Assembly: GCA_021325455.1 (NCBI GenBank)
Contig: JAJPHD010000014.1
Coordinates: 1 to 64,000, forward strand
Direction of reading: 5' to 3'
Length of the DNA: 64,000 nucleotides
From: Actinomycetota bacterium
Lineage (GTDB): Bacteria > Actinomycetota > Acidimicrobiia > Acidimicrobiales > JAJPHD01
Position 1 is the stretch's first letter, and the number at the start of each line of letters is the position of its first letter. The notes under the pieces were generated by a model that was not told the DNA's origin, did no database searches, and saw only the letters and a program-made list of their open reading frames with translations. Shown here piece by piece: positions 144 to 10,645 of this stretch. A program made the translations under genes and the position numbers.

Positions 144-237
144 GTCAAGGCTCCTGCGCTCGGGCCGGCAGTGATCATCTCCTCCTCCTGGTCGGCAGCC
201 GGGAAGGCCGTTCCACGCGCCATGCTGGTGACTACCC

Positions 238-276
238 GGTCATAATCGTTGTGCAAACACTCAAACTATGCGCCGA
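238..276 (-). promoter_or_regulatory. AT-rich segment, probable dxs promoter region
   Basis: This is the only clearly AT-rich patch in the 189-base gap between the fusion regulator and dxs. On the minus strand it has TTTGCA followed 17 bases later by TAGTCA, and a GATTAT hexamer. A short repeat, caaac-act-caaac, lies inside it and could bind a regulator. The exact promoter elements are not resolved. Nothing else recognisable lies in 144-332. Confidence 0.3.
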
Positions 277-332: not shown

Positions 333-1232
333 CTAGGAGCCGAGGCCGGCCCTGAGGAGGGAAGGGGCCTGGTCGGGCTCGGTCACGAGGCTGCGGATGC
401 TGGTGGCCAGGGCGGCCCCGAGCACCCTCTGGTCGGCGCCCTCCGCAGGGGAGAGGAGGTGGGCGCGCACCACCCGGCGCAGGTCAGAGAAGGCAGCCCG
501 CGCCACCCTGGCATGCCCGGGCCGGTGCTGGGCGGCCAGGGCCAGGAGGTCGAGCATCAGGGGAAGGTGGGGCGAGAGGGCCCGACCGAGGGCGAGGCCG
601 GCCTCCTCCTCGGAGAGCCCCACCCCCACCTCGGCGCTGAACGACCGGCTCGCCTCCGCTGCCGCCGCCATGGCCGTGGCGAAGAAGAGGTCCTCCTTGG
701 AGCGGTAGTGGCGGTAGAAGGATCCCTTGGCCAGCTTGGCGGAGCGGCACACGTCGTCCACGCTCACCTCCGCGAAGCCCCGGCGCGAGAAGGCCGCCAT
801 GCCGGCACGCAGGAGCCTGGCCGCCGGGGAGCGGCCCGGGTCCTCCTTGGCGTTGAGCTGAGCCTCGACCACCTCGTCCCACATCTCGGTGCGGAAGGCG
901 GGCTCATCGGCCAGCTTGACGAGCTGGGGGAGGATGCGGCCGATGTCGGAGAGGGGCAGGTGGCGGCGCTCCCGGAGGAGCCTCACCAGGTGGAGGGCCT
1001 GCTCGTGGCGGCGGTCGTAGAGGAACCGGTTGCGGGCCACCCGGATGGGCGGGGGGAGGAGGCCCAGCCTCAGGTAATGGCGGACGGTGGCCGGACGCAC
1101 GCCGGTCCTTGCCACCAGCTCGGCCATCGAGAAGTGCTCGCCGGCGGGGGCTCTGGCCCGGCGCCGCCGGCCCGGGAGGCCACGCTTGCGTCCCTGGCTA
1201 GCGTGGGAGGGCAGCAGCAGCCGGGCAGGCAT
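333..1232 (-). CDS. MerR-TetR fusion transcriptional regulator
   Basis: The 299-residue protein joins two DNA-binding modules. Residues about 33-100 look like a MerR winged helix (FSMAELVARTGV, then ATVRHYLRLGLLPPP). Residues about 137-184 look like a TetR helix-turn-helix (GFAEVSVDDVCRSAKLAKGS, then FYRHYRSKEDLF), followed by a helical ligand-binding-type C-terminus. MerR proteins normally dimerise through a coiled coil after the HTH; here the TetR core could supply dimerisation. The first 35 residues are Arg-rich and may be untranslated: an internal ATG at 1127 would give 264 residues and leave room for the degV promoter. It is divergent from degV and lies upstream of dxs on the same strand. 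Its target is unknown. Confidence 0.82.
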   Translation of the reverse strand: MPARLLLPSHASQGRKRGLPGRRRRARAPAGEHFSMAELVARTGVRPATVRHYLRLGLLPPPIRVARNRFLYDRRHEQALHLVRLLRERRHLPLSDIGRILPQLVKLADEPAFRTEMWDEVVEAQLNAKEDPGRSPAARLLRAGMAAFSRRGFAEVSVDDVCRSAKLAKGSFYRHYRSKEDLFFATAMAAAAEASRSFSAEVGVGLSEEEAGLALGRALSPHLPLMLDLLALAAQHRPGHARVARAAFSDLRRVVRAHLLSPAEGADQRVLGAALATSIRSLVTEPDQAPSLLRAGLGS

Positions 1233-1260: not shown

Positions 1261-2124
1261 ATGGCACGCATCGCAGTCATCACCGACTCCAGCGCCTGCT
1301 TGCCTGCTGGCTTGGTCGAGGACCTGGGCATCCACGTGCTCCCTATAACCGTGCACCTGCCGGGTGCGGACCGGCCCGACGGGGACCATGACCTCCCGAG
1401 CCGGGTCTATCAGGCTCTCGAGGAGGATCGCCCCGTCAAGTCGAGCCCTCCTTCGGTGGCAGAGTACCTCGCGGCCATCGAGGATGCGGACGCGCCGGCC
1501 GTGGTCATCGTCACCCCTGCCGCCGAGTACACGGCCATGACCCGCAACGCCCTGCTGGCCTGCGAGCTGGCCACGAAGAAGACGGTGGTCATCGACTCGC
1601 GCACCGGCGCTGCGGGCCAGGGCCTGGTGGCCCTGGCCGGTGCCCGGGCCGTGGCCGACGGGGAGGACCTGGACAGCGCCGTCTCCGTCATGAGGCAGGC
1701 CGCGGCGCGGGTGGACCTGGTCGGTGCCCTGGCCGGCCTGGCCCCGCTCCGGCGCAGCGGCCGGGTGCCCTCGCACCTGCTGGAGCGCCCCCGGCTCACT
1801 CGCCGCTCCCGGCAGGCGGCGGCGGCCGGCCGGGATGCCCGCTCGGTCTTCCGTATGCGCGGAGGGGCCATCGAGCCACTGGCTCGGGCCGAGTCGGCCC
1901 GGGAGGCCCTGGACCGTCTGGAGGAGCAGTGGCAAGCAGGCGGCGGGCCGTTGTCCAGCCTGGGGATCGTGTTCCACGGGGATGCGCCCGACCTGGCTGA
2001 CCACCTGGCGAGGAGGCTGGGGAGGGAGAGCATCGTGGCCGGCTTCAGCGCGGCCATGGGCATCTACACGGGGCGGGGGGTGGTGGGCGTCGCCTGGCTC
2101 ACCCCCGGCCGCCCCGCCCCCTGA
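1261..2124 (+). CDS. DegV family fatty-acid-binding protein
   Basis: The 287-residue product begins ARIAVITDSSACLPAGLVED, the DegV signature in which a TDS/T motif near the N-terminus contacts the fatty acid carboxylate. It continues with SSPPSVAEYLAAIED and the second-domain pattern LAPLRRSGRVP. Family members bind fatty acids and some act as FakB-type partners of a fatty acid kinase; no FakA kinase is in the window, so the exact role is open. The ATG at 1261 is preceded by a strong AGGGAGGA site; longer readings start inside the divergent regulator. A TAGCGT hexamer at 1199-1204 is a possible -10 element. Length is normal for the family. Confidence 0.85.
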   Translation: MARIAVITDSSACLPAGLVEDLGIHVLPITVHLPGADRPDGDHDLPSRVYQALEEDRPVKSSPPSVAEYLAAIEDADAPAVVIVTPAAEYTAMTRNALLACELATKKTVVIDSRTGAAGQGLVALAGARAVADGEDLDSAVSVMRQAAARVDLVGALAGLAPLRRSGRVPSHLLERPRLTRRSRQAAAAGRDARSVFRMRGGAIEPLARAESAREALDRLEEQWQAGGGPLSSLGIVFHGDAPDLADHLARRLGRESIVAGFSAAMGIYTGRGVVGVAWLTPGRPAP

Positions 2125-3100: not shown

Positions 3101-4033
3101 TCATCCCCCGTGGGCATGGTCGTGGGGGATGGGCGCCCCCACCCTGTCCTCGTAGCCGGGCAGCGGAGCCCGGTAGACGCAGCAGTCGCAGTTCATGCTG
3201 GCTCCTCCCGCCTGGGCCTCGGCGTGGCGTTCCAGCACCAGGCGGGCCAGGCGGGCATCGGGGGCCATCTCCTTGCCCACGGCCACCTGGACCCCAGGAT
3301 GGGCCCGTCCCCAGGCGCGGGCCTGGGTGGCGATGCGGTCCACGAGCAACCCGGTGAAGAGGAAGTAGGGGACCACGCTCACCCTCCGGGCACCGAGCCG
3401 CCGGCAGCGCTCCAGGGCCTCGGGTACCGACGGCCGGGCGAGGGACACGAAGGCGGGCTCGAAGATCGGGAAGGGCGCCGAGGCCGGGCCGGTGGCACCG
3501 GTCCCTGGGCCCTGGCCTGGCTGGAGGGGGCGATCGGCCAGCAGCCGAGCCACCTTGTAGAGATCGGCGTTGGCGTCGGGGTCGGTCGATCCTCTGCTCA
3601 CCAGCACGACGGCAGAGGGGCCGGGGGGCAGCTCCGACAGGCACGAACGGACCCGGTCTTCGGCTACGGCCAGGACGAGGGGGTGGATGCCCAGCTCCCT
3701 GGCGTACCGGAAGCGAGCACGGGGATGACGCCGTCGGGCCCGGGCCAGGGCGGCGGGCCCGTCGTTCTTCAGGTGCCCGGCGCCCAGGAGGACGAGGGGG
3801 ACGGCGACCAGCGCGCTGCAGCCGGCGGCCACCAGGCCGTCTATGGCCTCGTCCACGGTGGGGGGGGCGAACTCGAGGAAGCCCGCAGCGAGGGGCCGGC
3901 CGGGGTCGAGGGCGCGTACCTGGTTCACCAGGTCCCAGGCCTGGGTCACGCCGGCTGCAGAGCGGGTACCGTGCACGATGACCACCAGCCCCTCCTGGAG
4001 CGGCGGCGAGCCGCCGGCTGGCTGCATGGTCAT
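3101..4033 (-). CDS. cbiX: sirohydrochlorin cobaltochelatase, long CbiX
   Basis: The product would insert Co(II) into sirohydrochlorin at the start of the anaerobic cobalamin route. At 310 residues it is the long form with two ferrochelatase-like halves. The first half has His21 in IVHGTRS and His87 in LLGAGHLKND, the expected metal and proton ligands. The last 31 residues carry CDCC (Cys282, Cys284, Cys285), then VYRAPLPGYE and a His-rich HDHAHGG end. Long CbiX proteins carry a similar Cys-rich tail that can hold an Fe-S cluster. It overlaps the upstream cobH by four bases (ATGA) and is the last gene of the riboswitch-led operon. An odd feature is that the window also encodes a CobN-type late chelatase. 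Confidence 0.88.
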   Translation of the reverse strand: MTMQPAGGSPPLQEGLVVIVHGTRSAAGVTQAWDLVNQVRALDPGRPLAAGFLEFAPPTVDEAIDGLVAAGCSALVAVPLVLLGAGHLKNDGPAALARARRRHPRARFRYARELGIHPLVLAVAEDRVRSCLSELPPGPSAVVLVSRGSTDPDANADLYKVARLLADRPLQPGQGPGTGATGPASAPFPIFEPAFVSLARPSVPEALERCRRLGARRVSVVPYFLFTGLLVDRIATQARAWGRAHPGVQVAVGKEMAPDARLARLVLERHAEAQAGGASMNCDCCVYRAPLPGYEDRVGAPIPHDHAHGG

Positions 4034-4686
4034 CCTCTGGCCAGGCCGGCCAGCGCGTTGACCACCGCCGCCGCCACGGCCGAGCCCCCCCTCTCGCCCA
4101 CGTTGCTTATGGCCGCCAACCCGCTGGCCCGGAGGGCCGCCTTGGCCTCCACCGCCCCCACGAACCCCACGGGCATGCCCACCACGAGGGCGGGGGCGAA
4201 GCGGCCTTCACCGGCCAGGCGGACCACCTCCATCAGGGCGGTGGGGGCGCAGCCCACGACCACGATGGCCCCCCTCGGGTGCTCGCAGGCCGCCCGGCGG
4301 ATGCCCAGGGAGGCCCGGGTGGCGGGGGCGGGGGCATCGCCGGCCTCGGGGGCCACATCTCCCTCCTCACCAGAGGCCGGGATGGCGGCCGCTCCCAGGT
4401 AGCAGTGGGCTCGCCCCCGCACCCAGGGGGTGAGGCCGGCGCGCACCATCTCCACATCGGTCACGAGGGGGGCTTCCCCGGCCAGGGCAGCCACTCCGGC
4501 CTCCACTGCGTCCTCGCCCACGACCATGGTGCGGGCGTAGTGAGGGTCGGCGCTGGCGTGGATGACCCTTGCCACCACCGCCCTGGGCCCGGGCGCCAGG
4601 CCCGAGAGGTCCACGCGCCATTCCAGGCGCCGGAAGCTCTCGGCCTCGATGGGATGCGGCCGCCCCGAGGAGCCCCGTCCGGTCAT
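4030..4686 (-). CDS. cobH: precorrin-8X / cobalt-precorrin-8 methylmutase
   Basis: The enzyme moves the C11 methyl group to C12 to form hydrogenobyrinate or cobyrinate. The 218-residue product has the family pattern PHPIEAESFRR near the start, ARVIHASADPHYA with the likely catalytic His, and the C-terminal VVGCAPTALMEVVRL and PVGFVGAVEAKAALR blocks. An Ala/Pro/Glu-rich insert (EEGDVAPEAGDAPAPATR) breaks the middle of the domain. The ATG at 4686 overlaps the stop of the upstream ferredoxin in ATGA, which fixes the start over a longer upstream reading. The cbiX start overlaps its own stop in the same way. Confidence 0.9.
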   Translation of the reverse strand: MTGRGSSGRPHPIEAESFRRLEWRVDLSGLAPGPRAVVARVIHASADPHYARTMVVGEDAVEAGVAALAGEAPLVTDVEMVRAGLTPWVRGRAHCYLGAAAIPASGEEGDVAPEAGDAPAPATRASLGIRRAACEHPRGAIVVVGCAPTALMEVVRLAGEGRFAPALVVGMPVGFVGAVEAKAALRASGLAAISNVGERGGSAVAAAVVNALAGLARG

Positions 4687-4940
4687 GCCCACACCTCCGA
4701 GATGGCTCCCGCCGGGCAGATCTCGATGCAGGCCAGGCACCCGGTGCAGGCATGAGCCAGGACCTCGGGGCGGAGGGGAGCAGGCCGCAGGGCCCTCTCG
4801 GGGCAGGTGGAAAGACAGGCGCCGCAGGCGGTGCACCTTCGGTCTATGGCGACGGCCAGCACAGAGGGCGGCCCGCCGTCCGCAGTGCCTCTCCGGTGGC
4901 CGGCGACCCCCCCGCCAGGCCCGGCGTCGGTCGGCCTCAT
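4683..4940 (-). CDS. 2[4Fe-4S] ferredoxin within the cobalamin operon
   Basis: This 85-residue protein has two complete cluster motifs: Cys36, 39, 42 and 46 in CTACGACLSTCP, and Cys65, 68, 71 and 75 in CTGCLACIEICP. That is the layout of a bacterial 2[4Fe-4S] ferredoxin. The first 30 residues are a Gly-rich leader. Both ends are locked into the operon by ATGA overlaps, with cbiGH upstream and cobH downstream, so it is almost certainly co-translated with corrin enzymes. A role as electron donor for ring contraction or cobalt reduction is my inference. Some CbiH proteins, such as the extended CbiH of Bacillus megaterium, carry their own Fe-S domain, so a separate ferredoxin could replace it here. 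Confidence 0.85.
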   Translation of the reverse strand: MRPTDAGPGGGVAGHRRGTADGGPPSVLAVAIDRRCTACGACLSTCPERALRPAPLRPEVLAHACTGCLACIEICPAGAISEVWA

Positions 4941-6655
4941 GCCCGGTAGCCCCTCGGGGTGACCATGCGGCCGCCCACCACCCGCGTCCGGGAGGAGCCG
5001 ACGATCACACACGTCGTCATGCCGACCTGCTCGGGGTCCAGGCCGGCCAGGGTGGTGACGACCGCCACCTGCCCGGGGCGGGCCACGTCGGTGGCCAGCC
5101 CCACCGGCGTCCGGGGGGACCGGTGCCGGCCCAGGATCTCGAGAGCCACCGGGAGCTGCCAGGTGCGCTTGGCCGAGCGGGGGTTGTAGAGGACCACGGC
5201 CATGTCGGCGGCCCCCGCCGCCTCCAGCCTGGCGGCGATCGTGGCCCACGGGGTGAGCAGGTCCGACAGGCTGATGACGGCATGATCGTGCCCGAGGGGG
5301 GCGCCGAGCAGGGCCGCCGCGGCGTGGCTGGCGCTCACGCCCGGCACGACCTCCAGCTCCAGGTCGGGCGCCTCCGGGCCCTCCCGTTCCCGGCCCTGCC
5401 CGGCCCGCTCACAGACGAGAGAGGCCATGGCGTAGAGGCCGGGGTCGCCCGAGCAGACCAGTGCCACCCGCCGGCCGGCCAGGGCCAGGGCCAGGGCGGC
5501 ATCAGCCCGGCTCACCTCGTTCCCTAGGGGGGAGGTCACGACGTCGTGCCCGGTGCCAATGAGGTCCCGGCACTGGTCCACGTACCTCTCGTAGCCGATC
5601 ACCACCTCGGCCCGGCGGACGGCGCGCTCGGCAGCGGGTGTGCGGTTGAGGGCATCGCCGGGGCCGAGGCCCACCACGCTCAGGTGGCCACGAGGCCGGC
5701 GGCGGCGAGCCAGGGCCAGGGTGACCTCGGCCCCCACCTGCTTGGGGACGACCAGGCACGCCCCCGGGCCGGCGGCCAGGAGGGCGGCGGCCTCAGCCAC
5801 GCTGGGCGTGCCCACCGCCCCCTCGACGGCACGGCTGGGGTGGGGCACCGGCACCCGGGCCAGGGCGGCCGGCGGGAAGGCCCTCACCGGGAGCCCGAGG
5901 CCGGTCACGGCCGGGTGGCCGGCTCTCTTGTCGATCGTGGCCACCTCTGCCACCGATGCCGGGGCCAGGCCGGCGATGCCCAGGGCCTGGCGCAGGAGGG
6001 AGGATGCCTCCGACGGCCTCGCCGTCGATGCCGCCCCCAAGCCGGCGACCAGGCTCGGCGGGTGGAGGCGGGCCAGCCCCGCCTCGGCCGGTCCGAGGAG
6101 GTCGGTCACGAGGATCCGCGGGCTCGCCCCCGCTCCTCCGGCCTCCGCCCCTCCGGGGGCGGCCAGCTCCTCCAGAGACGAGGGGAGGGGCCAGCCCAGC
6201 GGGTTGTCGATGGCGGGGCGGGCCTCGTCCAGCAGGGCCCGCATGACCCCCGCCACGTCCCCGCTGGCCGTGAAGCCGGGCAGGGCGTCCAGGGCGGGCA
6301 GCTCCGCAGCCTCTGAGGCCGTGGTGACCACGGCCTCAGCTCCCGTCGCCTGGGCCACCAGGTAGGCCAGTTGGTTGGCCCCCGCCCTGCCCCCCCGGGG
6401 GTGCCCGCCGCAGAGGGCCACGGCGTAGCGGCCGGCGTCATCCAGGCAGACCACGGAGGGGTCCTCCTCCTTCCGGCCGAGCAGAGGGGCGATGATGCGG
6501 ACTGCCGCCCCCACGGCCAGCACCAGGACGAAGCCATCCACGTCCCGCCAGCTCTCCCGCACCGTCCGGCCCGCCTGCCCGTGCCGGTGCTCGAAAGGCA
6601 GACGCCCTGCCAGCTCCTTCCCCCTCTCGGTCACCGTCACCGTCAGGACCCGCAT
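4937..6655 (-). CDS. bifunctional cobalt-precorrin-5A hydrolase / precorrin-3B C17-methyltransferase (CbiG-CbiH fusion)
   Basis: The 572-residue protein fuses two steps. Residues 1 to about 320 are CbiG-like, which opens the ring-A delta-lactone and releases acetaldehyde. The N-terminal part has WRDVDGFVLVLAVGAAVRII and CGGHPRGGRAGANQLA; the C-terminal part has SLVAGLGAASTARPSE and IDKRAGHPAVTGL. Residues about 323-572 are a CobJ/CbiH methyltransferase with GHLSVVGLGPGD, the SAM loop VCSGDPGLYAMASLV, VPGVSASHAAAA and VVLYNPRSAKR. The start overlaps cobL by 13 bases and the stop overlaps the ferredoxin start. CbiG marks the oxygen-independent branch of the pathway. Confidence 0.9.
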   Translation of the reverse strand: MRVLTVTVTERGKELAGRLPFEHRHGQAGRTVRESWRDVDGFVLVLAVGAAVRIIAPLLGRKEEDPSVVCLDDAGRYAVALCGGHPRGGRAGANQLAYLVAQATGAEAVVTTASEAAELPALDALPGFTASGDVAGVMRALLDEARPAIDNPLGWPLPSSLEELAAPGGAEAGGAGASPRILVTDLLGPAEAGLARLHPPSLVAGLGAASTARPSEASSLLRQALGIAGLAPASVAEVATIDKRAGHPAVTGLGLPVRAFPPAALARVPVPHPSRAVEGAVGTPSVAEAAALLAAGPGACLVVPKQVGAEVTLALARRRRPRGHLSVVGLGPGDALNRTPAAERAVRRAEVVIGYERYVDQCRDLIGTGHDVVTSPLGNEVSRADAALALALAGRRVALVCSGDPGLYAMASLVCERAGQGREREGPEAPDLELEVVPGVSASHAAAALLGAPLGHDHAVISLSDLLTPWATIAARLEAAGAADMAVVLYNPRSAKRTWQLPVALEILGRHRSPRTPVGLATDVARPGQVAVVTTLAGLDPEQVGMTTCVIVGSSRTRVVGGRMVTPRGYRA

Positions 6656-7878
6656 GCCGTCCCCCCTCCGCAGCAGCCGGCCTGGGGAGGAGGCCCCCAG
6701 GCCACGAAGACGGGGTTCTCGGCGGCCAGCCGGAAGCCCCCGTCGGGCAGGGCCCGCCCTCTGGCCAGGCCCACCTGGACCACCTCACCGAGGCGGGAGG
6801 CCGCCCCCGCCGCCCGCTCCAGGGCGGCGTAGGTGGCCACGACCCGGCCTCCGGGGCGCAGGTGGGACAGCACGGAGTCGAGGACCTCGAGGCCCCCGCC
6901 CCCCACGAAGGCGCGGTCGGGCGGGGGCAGGCCCTCGAGAGCGGGAGGAGCCTCGCCTGCCACCACCTCCACGGCCACCCGGTGGGCGGCGGCGTTGGCT
7001 CTCGCCCGGGCGGCGTCGTCGGGGCGCCGCTCCAGGGCCACCACCCTGAGCCGGGGGCAGAGCCGCGCCGCCTCTATGGCGACGCTGGCGCACCCGGCTC
7101 CCACATCCCACATCACCCCCTCCTCGGGCAGCTCGAGCTTGCCCAGGACTATGGCCCGGACCTCGGCCTTGGTCACCATGCCGCCCCGGTGGGCGAAGAC
7201 CTGGTCGGGCAGGCCCCAGGCCAGGGTCCGGGCTGCCGGCCCGGGGGGACCCCCTTCCAGCAGCACCACCACCGACCTCGGGTCCCATGCGCCGGCGGCC
7301 AGCCCGGCCAGGTCCACGGCCGCCACCTGCTCGTCGGGCCGCCCCAAGCGGGAGCAGACCGTCGCCCGGCGGTGGCGGGCGCCCAACGCCAGGAGGGCGG
7401 CGCCCAGGGCCTGGGGGGTGGCCTGGGGGGAGGTGAGGACGGCCACCTTGGGATGGGCAGCAGCCAGGCGGGCCGCATCCTCCAGGGGGCGTCCGTGGGC
7501 CGAGACGACCAGAGCGTCGTCCCAGGGGAGCCCGAGCCGGGCGAAGGCGAGGGCCACCGACGACGGGGCGGGGTGGACGTCCAGCCGGTCGGGGCCGAAG
7601 CGGGCCCCCAGGGCCCTCACGATGCCGAAGAAGCCGGGGTCGCCCGACGCCACCACCGCTGCCCTTCCCCGGTGCCCGGCGATGGCGTCGAGGACCGGTG
7701 CCAGGTCGCCCCCGATGGTGAGCACAGTGGGTGAGTGCTCGAGGCCTCTGAGGGCGCGGAGGCACTCGGGCCCCCCCGCCACCAGGCTGGCCCGGGACAG
7801 GGCCTCGAGGGCCGGTGGGGCCAAGGACCAGGCCCGGTCTCCGGCGAGGCCCACGACGGCCACCCTTCCCTCAGCCAC
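6643..7878 (-). CDS. cobL: precorrin-6Y C5,15-methyltransferase (decarboxylating), CbiE-CbiT fusion
   Basis: The 411-residue enzyme methylates C5 and C15 and removes the ring-C acetate carboxyl. Residues 1 to about 210 are CbiE-like (VAVVGLAGDRAWSL, then VVASGDPGFFGIVR and VHPAPSSVALAFARLGL). Residues about 225-411 are CbiT-like, with GGMVTKAEVRAIVLGKLEL and the SAM-binding VMWDVGAGCASVAIEAARL. The C-terminal tail is Gly/Cys-rich (GCCGGGTACGS) and of unknown use. A GTG start at 7878 is used, overlapping the cbiD stop by eight bases. Its length is normal for fused CobL. Confidence 0.92.
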   Translation of the reverse strand: MAEGRVAVVGLAGDRAWSLAPPALEALSRASLVAGGPECLRALRGLEHSPTVLTIGGDLAPVLDAIAGHRGRAAVVASGDPGFFGIVRALGARFGPDRLDVHPAPSSVALAFARLGLPWDDALVVSAHGRPLEDAARLAAAHPKVAVLTSPQATPQALGAALLALGARHRRATVCSRLGRPDEQVAAVDLAGLAAGAWDPRSVVVLLEGGPPGPAARTLAWGLPDQVFAHRGGMVTKAEVRAIVLGKLELPEEGVMWDVGAGCASVAIEAARLCPRLRVVALERRPDDAARARANAAAHRVAVEVVAGEAPPALEGLPPPDRAFVGGGGLEVLDSVLSHLRPGGRVVATYAALERAAGAASRLGEVVQVGLARGRALPDGGFRLAAENPVFVAWGPPPQAGCCGGGTACGS

Positions 7879-8935
7879 GGGCCACCACCTCGTCCCCCTC
7901 GAAGTCCACCATCACCACCTCCACCTCCACCTGCCCGCCGGCGTGGTCCCGGCAGGCGCCTGCCGCCCGGTGGCAGAGGACGTCGAGGGGACGGGTGTCC
8001 CCGGCCGCCACGCACGCCTCGTAGAAGTGGCGGGCCGTGGCCGTGGCCGTGGCCGCCCGGAGGATGCCCTGGCCCGAGCCAGCGGAGCGGGCCGCTCCCG
8101 CCATGACCTCCCCGTCCACCTTGGAGCGGTGGAAGTGGGTCATCATCACCCCGGCCGCCAGCTTGGTGATCTTGCCGGCCATGGCCACCAGCACCACCCG
8201 GGCGACACCGGCCCTGGCGGCCCGACGGAGGGCCACGCCGGTGTAGTCGCCCACCTCGACGAAGCACACCTGGTCCAGGCCGGGGAAGAGGCGCATGGCC
8301 GCCTGCTCCGAGCGGCTACCGGTGGCAAGGACCACCATCGGCTGCCCCAGGGCCCCCGCCACGTCGATCTGCTGGACCACCGAGGCCCGGTAGGCGGCAG
8401 TGGAGAACGGGCGGACTATGCCGGTGGTGCCGAGGATCGAGATGCCCCCGACAATGCCCAGCCTGGCGTTGGTGGTCTTGACGGCCATGTCCTCGCCGCC
8501 GGGGACGGAGAAGGTCACCTCGAAGGAATGGCTCCCCACCTCCTCCAGGGCGGTGGTGATCATCCGCCGGGGCACCGGGTTGATGGCGGGCGCCCCCACC
8601 GGCAGCCCCAGCCCGGGTTTGGTCACGGTTCCCACCCCCTCGCCCGCCAGCAAGAGGGGCGGGCCGGGGGAGGAACTGGTGAGCCGGGCGGTGGCCGTCA
8701 TGCGGGCCCCGTCCGTGCAGTCGGGGTCATCGCCGGCGTCCTTCACGACCACGGCGCAGGCCGGCCCTTCGGCCTCCACGGGGAAGCGCACCCGGCGGCC
8801 CCCGGGGAGGGCCACCTCCACGTCGGAGGGGACCGAGCCGGTGACGAGGCCGATGGCGGCGGCCTTGGCGGCCGCCGAGGCACAGGTACCCGTGGTCCAG
8901 CCCGTGCGCAGGCCCGGGGGCCGGGTCGGGCTCAC
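7871..8935 (-). CDS. cbiD: cobalt-precorrin-5B C1-methyltransferase
   Basis: CbiD methylates C1 in the anaerobic pathway. The 354-residue protein begins with the family hallmark RTGWTTGTCASAAAKAAA, followed by KDAGDDPDCTDGA, GVGTVTKPGLGLPVG and PAINPVPRRMI. Further on are the expected SILGTTGIVRPFS and GSRSEQAAM blocks. The GTG at 8935 is selected because it overlaps the cobM stop as GTGA; longer readings only run into cobM in another frame. Together with CbiG it indicates the oxygen-independent branch. Confidence 0.92.
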   Translation of the reverse strand: MSPTRPPGLRTGWTTGTCASAAAKAAAIGLVTGSVPSDVEVALPGGRRVRFPVEAEGPACAVVVKDAGDDPDCTDGARMTATARLTSSSPGPPLLLAGEGVGTVTKPGLGLPVGAPAINPVPRRMITTALEEVGSHSFEVTFSVPGGEDMAVKTTNARLGIVGGISILGTTGIVRPFSTAAYRASVVQQIDVAGALGQPMVVLATGSRSEQAAMRLFPGLDQVCFVEVGDYTGVALRRAARAGVARVVLVAMAGKITKLAAGVMMTHFHRSKVDGEVMAGAARSAGSGQGILRAATATATARHFYEACVAAGDTRPLDVLCHRAAGACRDHAGGQVEVEVVMVDFEGDEVVARG

Positions 8936-9786
8936 CGGGACACCCCGGGGGGGAAGGGGCCCGACCCCACCCGCCTCTCGGCTGCACCCGGTATGGGCCG
9001 TCCCTCGGTTGACCCCGGGCGGGACCGCCGGCGGAACAGGTGGGCCCAGCCGGGGTCGTAGAGGTGGCTCCGCAGGCTGTCGGGCCTGTCCCTCCCGAGG
9101 GCCGGTCCCACCAGCACCAGGACCGTGGTGCGGGCCCCGGTGGCAGCCAGGTCGGCGGCGAGTCGGCCCACCGTCGTCCACACCACCCTCTGGTCCGGCC
9201 AGGAGGCCCGGACCACTATCAGCGCCGGGGTGGCCCCGTCGAAGGCGCTGTCGGGCCCGAGCAGCGACTGCTGCAGCTCACGCGGCTGAGCGGCCGAGAG
9301 GAAGACGGCCAGGGTGGCCCCGTGGGCGGCGAAGGAGGCCACGGACTGGCGCTCGGGCATCGAGGAGGCGGTCCGTCCCGCCAGACGGGTGATCACCACG
9401 CTCTGGGCCAGGCCCGGGACCGTCAGCTCGCAGCCGGCAGCGGCAGCGGCCGCCCCGAGCGAGCTCACGCCGGGGACGATCTCGAAGTCGCGCTCCTCTG
9501 CCACGCACCAGTCGATCTGCTCCTGTATGGCGCCATAGACCGAGGGGTCCCCCGAGTGCAGGCGGACGATGGCCGCCCCGGGATGCTGCTCGTAGACCCC
9601 GAGCACGTCCTCCAGGGTCATGCCGGCGGAGTCGTGCACCACCGCCGAGGGGTTGGCGTGGTCGAGGACCGCCCGGGGGACCAGCGACGACGCCCAGACC
9701 ACTACGTCGGCGGCGGCCAGGCGAGCCGCACCCCGCAGGGTGATGAGGTCAGGGGCGCCCGGGCCGGCACCTACGAAGCTGATCAC
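8932..9786 (-). CDS. cobM: precorrin-4 / cobalt-precorrin-4 C11-methyltransferase
   Basis: The 284-residue protein is a tetrapyrrole methyltransferase: ISFVGAGPGAPDLITLRGA at the N-terminus, VRLHSGDPSVYGAIQEQI for the SAM-binding loop, VPGVSSLGAAAAAAGCELTV and SVVITRLAGRT typical of CobM/CbiF. The last 30 residues (after YDPGWAHLFRRR) are a Pro/Gly/Arg-rich extension. The GTG start at 9786 forms a GTGA overlap with the cbiL stop. It is the second gene after the riboswitch. Confidence 0.92.
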   Translation of the reverse strand: MISFVGAGPGAPDLITLRGAARLAAADVVVWASSLVPRAVLDHANPSAVVHDSAGMTLEDVLGVYEQHPGAAIVRLHSGDPSVYGAIQEQIDWCVAEERDFEIVPGVSSLGAAAAAAGCELTVPGLAQSVVITRLAGRTASSMPERQSVASFAAHGATLAVFLSAAQPRELQQSLLGPDSAFDGATPALIVVRASWPDQRVVWTTVGRLAADLAATGARTTVLVLVGPALGRDRPDSLRSHLYDPGWAHLFRRRSRPGSTEGRPIPGAAERRVGSGPFPPGVSR

Positions 9787-10514
9787 CCGTCCACCCTCCC
9801 GGCTGGCGGCACGATCACCGTCACCAGGTAGGCGGCCGGGCCGGAGGCCAGCTCGGCCACGGGCCCCACCCGCTGGCCCGGCAGGCCGAGGAGCTCCCCG
9901 GCCATCGCTCCCTCCAGCCTGCCCACCTCCTCCAGGAGCTTGGCCATGGCCGGCAGGTGCCGGCCGCCCTTGTAGACGACGACCGCCCGTGAGGGATCCT
10001 CCAGGGCCTGGGACAGGGTCTCGGTGCCGTCCAGGGCGGTGACCAGCGACAGGGCCCCGGTGCCTTCGGCCAGCGGGACCCCGGCCATGGCCGCCAGGGC
10101 CTGGAAGGCCATGATCCCGGGGACGGTCGTCACCTCGACCTGCGGCCTCAGCCGGGTCACCTCGGACGCCAGGGAGGAGAAAGTGGAGTAGATGTTGGGG
10201 TCGCCGAGGGTCACGAAGGCGACGTGCTCGCCGGCATCGAGCCAGGGGACCAGCTCCCGGGCCGGCCCGGAGGCCGGCGAGCTGGGCCCCCCCGTCCCCA
10301 TGGGGAAGACGACGCGCTCGACCCGGAGGTGGGGGCGGACCTGGCGCACCACCGACTCGGCCCGGCCCACGGCATCGGGGGCGCCCGAGGGCGCCACCAC
10401 CCGGTCGGCGGCGTCCAGGGCCCCCAGGGCCTGGAGGGTGACCAGGTCCGGGTGGCCGGGGCCGACGCCGACCCCGGTCAGGCGGGCGGGTGGTGTGGAG
10501 GATGGGGCCGTCAT
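9783..10514 (-). CDS. cbiL: precorrin-2 / cobalt-factor II C20-methyltransferase
   Basis: This is the first gene of the riboswitch-controlled arm. The 243-residue product has LTGVGVGPGHPDLVTLQAL, FVTLGDPNIYSTFSSLASEV and VTTVPGIMAFQALAAMAGVP, which are specific to CobI/CbiL. The middle insert with VFPMGTGG and the late VVVYKGGRHLP also fit. The ATG at 10514 follows AGGA about ten bases upstream, in the leader just below the cobalamin riboswitch. Whether the substrate carries cobalt cannot be read from sequence; the neighbouring cbiX, cbiD and cbiGH favour the cobalt-containing route. Confidence 0.9.
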   Translation of the reverse strand: MTAPSSTPPARLTGVGVGPGHPDLVTLQALGALDAADRVVAPSGAPDAVGRAESVVRQVRPHLRVERVVFPMGTGGPSSPASGPARELVPWLDAGEHVAFVTLGDPNIYSTFSSLASEVTRLRPQVEVTTVPGIMAFQALAAMAGVPLAEGTGALSLVTALDGTETLSQALEDPSRAVVVYKGGRHLPAMAKLLEEVGRLEGAMAGELLGLPGQRVGPVAELASGPAAYLVTVIVPPAGRVDG

Positions 10515-10529
10515 GTCTTGGTCCTGGGC

Positions 10530-10645
10530 ACCTCGGCAAGGTTCGGGGGTCGCGCCGGCCTCCTGGCTCCCGGGCAGGGCGACGGGCGCCCCCGGTCACA
10601 GTGGCTGCCGCGCCGGACTCCCACCGGCTTGCCGCCTCGCGACCC
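10530..10645 (-). promoter_or_regulatory. cobalamin riboswitch upstream of cbiL
   Basis: Reading the minus strand, the leader has AAGCCGGTGGGAGTCCGG, then GCGGCAGCCACTGTGACC, then GGGAGCCAGGAGGCCGG. These match in order the conserved core and B12-box elements of cobalamin riboswitches (CCGGTG, CCACTGT, GCCAGGAGACC). It fills the 139-base gap between cobB and cbiL, so adenosylcobalamin would switch off the downstream arm while cysHDN-cobO-cobB upstream escapes direct control. The edges are approximate. Confidence 0.85.

Follow-up and report, generated by a model that had tools for sequence, protein, structure and literature searches.

The window, i.e. the whole stretch of 64,000 nucleotides analysed, carries close to its first base an ORF with an ATG start that occupies exactly positions 333..1232 of the minus strand and encodes a MerR-TetR fusion regulator of 299 aa. 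The original prediction had placed MerR and TetR DNA-binding domains together in this protein, and Pfam bears it out, both domains scoring above their cut-offs: MerR_1 at residues 34-103 (E 5.3e-15, 55.7 bits for a cut-off of 21.6), MerR at residues 36-69 (34.8 bits for a cut-off of 28.2) and TetR_N at residues 140-185 (E 1.7e-16, 60.1 bits for a cut-off of 24). The MerR winged helix-turn-helix (residues 34-103), also delineated by predicted helices and strands and by conservation, corresponds to 924..1133 on the minus strand; the TetR helix-turn-helix (residues 140-185), also seen in the predicted helices, to 678..815 (minus); and the TetR C-terminal all-helical domain (residues 186-299), defined by predicted helices and by Foldseek, to 336..677 (minus). 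TetR_N matches a single stretch, so that the protein is not built of two TetR units in the manner of Mce3R.

As had been claimed, the fusion gene lies between dxs and degV. The latter is divergent from the regulator (1261..2124, plus strand; DegV by Pfam and NCBIfam) and separated from it by 28 bp. At the other side an N-terminal fragment of dxs is found at the contig edge (1..107, minus strand): bases 3-107 match positions 1-33 of the Pfam family DXP_synthase_N, and also residues 23-56 of a full DXS; the gene starts around position 107 (GTG), about 128 bases from the dyad of the candidate operator described below. Since window base 1 is the first base of contig C24, this dxs copy is an N-terminal stub only. 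Beyond degV the window carries a class F sortase gene (2162-2998, above the NCBIfam cut-off), followed on the minus strand, at 3101-10600, by cobalamin biosynthesis genes (CbiX, CbiC, CbiG and a tetrapyrrole methylase by Pfam, more of them by eye).

The AlphaFold2 model of the monomer has a mean pLDDT of 88.8, and the MerR winged helix-turn-helix, wing included, reaches a mean of at least 92 in every ten-residue block of residues 31-100. The MerR part is predicted to form helices 36-43 and 47-55, strands 63-66 and 69-72, then helices 74-90 and 94-108. Helices 94-108 and 115-129 are the only ones standing before the TetR part, and the long dimerisation helix of MerR proteins is not evident in the monomer model. 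Five helices are predicted between residues 179 and 297, which gives the C-terminal half of the TetR part the all-helical character of the TetR fold; the 50 Foldseek matches listed are all described as TetR-family or transcriptional regulators (E 1.9e-4 to 1.5e-3, partial TM-scores). This domain is presumed to ensure dimerisation and to bind the ligand. Residues 1-110 are devoid of cysteine, hence of a metal site of the usual MerR kind. A scan of genome contigs for the fusion returned only four matches, each spanning one domain, and a scan of plasmids returned none.

Orthologs were collected from 397 genomes sampled within the order, the window's genome included: the profile matched 68 of them at E 1e-20 or better, and one (G463), a MerR-only match, was dropped, which left 67 fusions. 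Alignment A3 took 58 of these 67 proteins, limiting near-duplicates (the window protein and 57 relatives, at 30-59% identity to it). Each of the 58 members has a TetR_N match and a MerR_1 match with E no higher than 0.001; the fusion is therefore no assembly artefact. Mean pairwise identity in A3 is highest, among the stretches measured, for MerR residues 34-72 (0.548, to be compared with 0.504 for the TetR helix-turn-helix); it amounts to 0.491 for residues 73-103, 0.275 for the TetR C-terminal part and 0.176 for the linker 104-137. Degeneracy of the MerR part, named beforehand as the observation that would count against the original prediction, was not seen: this conservation and the high-confidence model (pLDDT at least 92) both argue that the MerR part of the window protein is not degenerate. 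Five of the 58 members (L084, L220, L221, L223 and L225, of family f16) are gapped in the MerR part after the wing; they keep the helix-turn-helix, and a 10/10 core of the operator discussed below.

The window's genome carries hopanoid genes on another contig. Contig C25 opens with a stretch that aligns to DXS residues 618-660 (and has no Pfam match); after this end of dxs, the plus strand of the contig encodes HpnC, HpnD, HpnE, a polyprenyl synthetase, the squalene-hopene cyclase (SHC), HpnG and HpnH. The NCBIfam equivalog cut-offs are passed by HpnC, HpnE, the hopene cyclase and HpnH; HpnD, though the best match, stays under its own; and HpnG was named via a G055 protein (78 bits) which is itself under the HpnG cut-off. 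The simplest reading of these sequences is that dxs-hpnC-hpnD-hpnE-polyprenyl synthase-SHC-hpnG-hpnH would form one operon, interrupted where the assembly has a gap within dxs, with dxs as the predicted first gene downstream of the regulator. In two relatives (G290 and G296) the order degV / fusion / dxs / hpnC ... hpnH is unbroken, and in many others the fusion is directly followed by hpnC, without dxs between them. Isoprenoid or lipid supply had been proposed as a possible target of the regulator; this proposal gains computational support from the products of the downstream operon, the hopanoids, which are cholesterol-like lipids of bacterial membranes. The same genome also has, outside the hopanoid operon, a third squalene/phytoene-synthase gene (L086, G000:C22:201693-202451).

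A cyclase profile matched 83 of the 397 genomes at E 1e-40; four of them having only a weaker paralog (G449, G483, G500 and G544, E about 1e-51 to 1e-57) were dropped, leaving 79. Fusion and SHC are found together in 64 genomes, the fusion only in three (G475, G498, G593), SHC only in 15 and neither in 315. The Fisher test of this association (p 2.9e-55) is descriptive: because the genomes are related, its value overstates the number of independent events. When the two genes are on one contig, i.e. in 50 genomes, SHC is always (50/50) on the same strand, 5.1-8.5 kb downstream of the fusion; in the 14 others they are on separate contigs. In a class sample of 296 genomes the fusion (E <1e-40) occurs in nine, and these nine all belong to the 12 genomes that have a strong cyclase match (E <1e-100). 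A survey of what such fusions neighbour, suggested at the outset, brings out the hopanoid operon: of the 59 loci whose downstream sequence covers 450 nt or more, 54 have hpnC or dxs in it, on the strand of the fusion. Besides, genus g56 and part of the f35 genomes have a second, divergent SHC-like gene (E about 1e-50 to 1e-59), for example in G055:C28, G354:C67 and G437:C30.

Alignments within one genus (13 genomes) and within another (6 genomes) revealed a conserved palindrome after the stop codon of the regulator gene. We scanned for its core, TGACC-N4-GGTCA, scored of 10, in 66 downstream stretches of up to 350 nt (the 67th was too short): 51 of them score 9-10 and 59 score at least 8. A score of at least 9 is reached in none of 66 upstream stretches, in none of 67 stretches inside the gene, and in about 1% of shuffles. 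Two score-8 matches of the downstream scan (G352 and G464) were dropped because of improper place or arms. By a generous count, the candidate site is present in 62 of the 67 fusion loci; in G163 it consists of a 7/10 core with arms read by eye as palindromic. No convincing site was found in G501, G464, G331 and G475, and the G551 stretch ends at a contig end.

The position of the site also bears on the role of degV, which is divergent in 25 of the 67 loci (four loci have less than 600 nt of upstream sequence, one of them among the 25) and stands only 28 bp away in the window. One might suppose from this proximity that the regulator acts on degV and not on the hopanoid operon. We find this hardly credible: 42 of the 67 loci have no divergent degV in the stretch covered, of which 37 have hpnC or dxs downstream, and the site is on the hpnC/dxs side, the upstream stretches being, as said, without any high-scoring core.

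Alignment of 57 sites, which represent 29 genera in 10 families, shows a nearly invariant inner TGAC-N6-GTCA and, about 12-19 bp from the dyad, outer arms that are clade-specific: GTACAA...TTGTAC-like, or CGTATA...TATACG in family f46. The site of G296, TGTACATAGTTTGATGACTTTCAAGTCAGTAAACTATGTACA, is a near-perfect 42-bp palindrome, in a locus of 47.5% G+C. With each genus represented by a single site, the two arms match each other at 6.84 of 15 positions on average (best of three offsets), a value reached neither by arms swapped between genera (5.87/15, sd 0.26; 0/4000) nor by shuffled arms (5.29/15; 0/2000). In family f16 the arm symmetry is weak even in members with a complete MerR part. Genome-wide, the exact core shows no enrichment: it occurs 6, 3, 4, 8 and 7 times in five genomes, versus 1, 3, 8, 6 and 6 times for the reversed control, so that specificity must come from the arms and the context. 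A composite operator, as imagined for a protein with two different heads, is thus supported computationally, by a candidate palindrome with inner TGAC/GTCA and clade-specific outer arms before the first biosynthetic gene. A covariation of the MerR recognition residue 51 (His/Arg) with the outer arms was considered and left unused, being confounded by phylogeny.

Another way to explain the arms would be that the TetR part alone is specific, the arms being extended contacts of TetR or the target of another TetR dimer, while the MerR head would be non-specific or serve contacts between proteins. The nearly invariant inner core next to arms varying by family is in line with this, as are the five members out of 58 that lack the MerR stretch after the wing and nevertheless keep a 10/10 core. 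Against it, the arms, some 12-19 bp away from the dyad and so out of reach of a single TetR dimer, are palindromic beyond chance, and the MerR recognition region is conserved; we therefore regard it as unlikely.

The window itself has an inner core, TGACCGGGTAGTCA (minus strand), at 229..242, which fits 9 of the 10 core positions; when the 225-base intergenic stretch was shuffled, 34 of 5000 sequences scored as high. One outer arm, TTTGCACAACGATTA (minus strand), lies at 243..257 and contains ACAA; the opposite one, at about 214-228, is weak. The arms are palindromic at 6 of 15 positions (best of three offsets), while the nulls average 5.3 and 5.9. With one of its arms weak, the window copy alone would not suggest the composite model. 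The arrangement proposed for a hopanoid regulator, hpnC or dxs downstream and the palindrome before it, is found in the window's genome too, when read across the contig pair C24/C25.

Five loci with enough downstream sequence have neither hpnC nor dxs near the regulator. Four of them show hpnC further on, and there the site precedes the first hpnC-homologous base by 44 nt (G441), 98 nt (G352), 121 nt (G579) and 73 nt (G593), with core scores of 10, 8, 9 and 9 respectively; in the fifth, G331, no hpnC was found in a stretch of 8.9 kb. As for hopanoid operons without the fusion, the loci of 11 of the 15 cyclase-only genomes of the order were scanned over their whole length, for cores of at least 9 only (G021, G531, G546 and G572 were left out). 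Such a core stands before hpnC in one of the 11 (G349), four other matches being within operon frames. At this locus (L183) the core scores 10, and no MerR-TetR gene was detected beside the operon or, at E 1e-20, elsewhere in the genome.

G349, having the site and no detected fusion, and conversely G464 and G501, in which the fusion adjoins hpnC without a convincing site, could indicate that the fusion simply accompanies the hopanoid operon while another regulator uses the palindrome. The site is strongly associated with the fusion, however, also where hpnC is displaced from it, and we judge this explanation very unlikely.

Comparative genomics thus shows that the gene heads the hopanoid operon, that it co-occurs with SHC and that a conserved palindrome stands before the first biosynthetic gene. 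From this we consider it likely that the fusion is a transcription factor dedicated to the hopanoid operon, acting as a TetR dimer with two MerR heads on a four-half-site operator, and most likely as a repressor. The protein would dimerise through the C-terminal half of its TetR part. The inner half-sites (TGAC/GTCA) are separated by one turn of the helix and would be read by the two TetR heads, as their distance and the usual geometry of TetR proteins suggest; the arms further out, at some 12-19 bp from the dyad, would be read by the two MerR heads, carried on the poorly conserved linker. Two pairs of contacts, TetR inside and MerR outside, would therefore define one specific site. As the outer arms differ between families, their assignment to MerR is indirect. 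The bound protein would most likely repress by covering the promoter or the leader, and might be released when a lipid or isoprenoid ligand enters the C-terminal TetR pocket. Repression is a guess, and a weak one, since in only a few loci does the site come very close to the start. Across 41 parsed loci, the dyad is separated from the start codon by a median of 62 nt if the first possible start is taken and of 144 nt if the last is; in G047 it can lie 12-39 nt and in G565 51 nt from a possible start, only starts beyond the core being counted.

These short distances also matter for the main rival, MerR-style activation, which has the same target with the opposite sign: the regulator would stay on its site and, on a signal, remodel the promoter, turning the operon on. 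MerR activators bind between the -35 and -10 elements, which are separated by a spacer of 19-20 bp, and a dyad located as in G047 or G565 would fit such a site; the MerR residues 34-72, moreover, are the best conserved stretch measured. On the other hand an alignment on the site revealed no conserved promoter element, in particular no -35/-10 pair, near it, and the long MerR dimerisation helix was not evident, helices 94-108 and 115-129 only being predicted. Activation thus appears rather improbable to us, and repression by the four-headed dimer remains the preferred reading. It is also conceivable, and we say it more tentatively, that these fusions form a hitherto undescribed class of regulators dedicated to hopanoid operons, in which the TetR dimer would clamp the inner palindrome and the tethered MerR heads would read or distort the outer arms, one protein thereby uniting two modes of recognition and perhaps combining repression with MerR-style activation and sensing the isoprenoid state of the membrane.

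In a phylum sample of 296 genomes, two genomes besides that of the window, both outside the class, have close orthologs (E <1e-89); in both, degV is divergent, hpnC is retained and the core scores 8 or 9. More distant MerR-TetR matches occur in 24 genomes of this sample, with up to seven per genome. Among 17 such paralogs (L243-L259, one locus in each of 17 genomes) none has hpnC within flanks of 1.5 kb and none has a core of at least 9, two reaching 8. The MerR-TetR architecture is therefore wider than the hopanoid role.

The fusion shares with the TetR-family repressors described in PMC3511530 the TetR_N helix-turn-helix, the all-helical C-terminal half and a proposed mode of action, in which an adjacent biosynthetic gene is controlled by way of a palindrome. 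It differs from those described there by the added N-terminal MerR winged helix-turn-helix, by the outer arms of the palindrome, and by its proposed target, a co-directional hopanoid operon instead of a divergent gene. Mce3R of Mycobacterium, in the account of PMC11667970, comes close in having two helix-turn-helix units per chain, of the TetR type, and in regulating a neighbouring lipid-related operon; it is also the best PDB sequence match (9b7y) of the six-member profile A1. In that account, however, Mce3R has two TetR units and 25-bp non-palindromic sites, whereas the heads of the fusion belong to different families and its candidate site is a palindrome. With MerR-family regulators the protein has in common the MerR_1 and MerR winged helix-turn-helix with its wing (Pfam); unlike them, it has no cysteine in residues 1-110 and no evident long dimerisation helix, and its presumed ligand and dimerisation part is of the TetR type. 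Transcriptional control of a hopanoid gene has a precedent in Rhodopseudomonas, where EcfG controls hpnP (Kulkarni 2013, cited in PMC4337730); as presented there, EcfG is a general stress sigma factor acting on the methylase, unlike the local operon role proposed for the fusion.

Neither a MerR-TetR regulator nor a dedicated hopanoid-operon regulator was found among the matches listed in open-licence papers. Hopanes are in wide use as molecular fossils, and to our knowledge the on/off control of hopanoid synthesis is known in few bacteria. With a regulator that is local and conserved, and a candidate operator that is defined, the question of hopanoid control becomes directly testable; and a natural fusion of two helix-turn-helix families, with a candidate composite operator, makes possible domain-by-domain tests of how DNA is read.

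A recurring second site in genus g36 was considered as a target and rejected: it has no matching arms and, by reading, is within coding sequence. At L233 (G410), the operator is adjoined by another palindrome that resembles the core, its spacer being about 1 base shorter, and the sequences suggest that tandem sites may exist in some g36 members.
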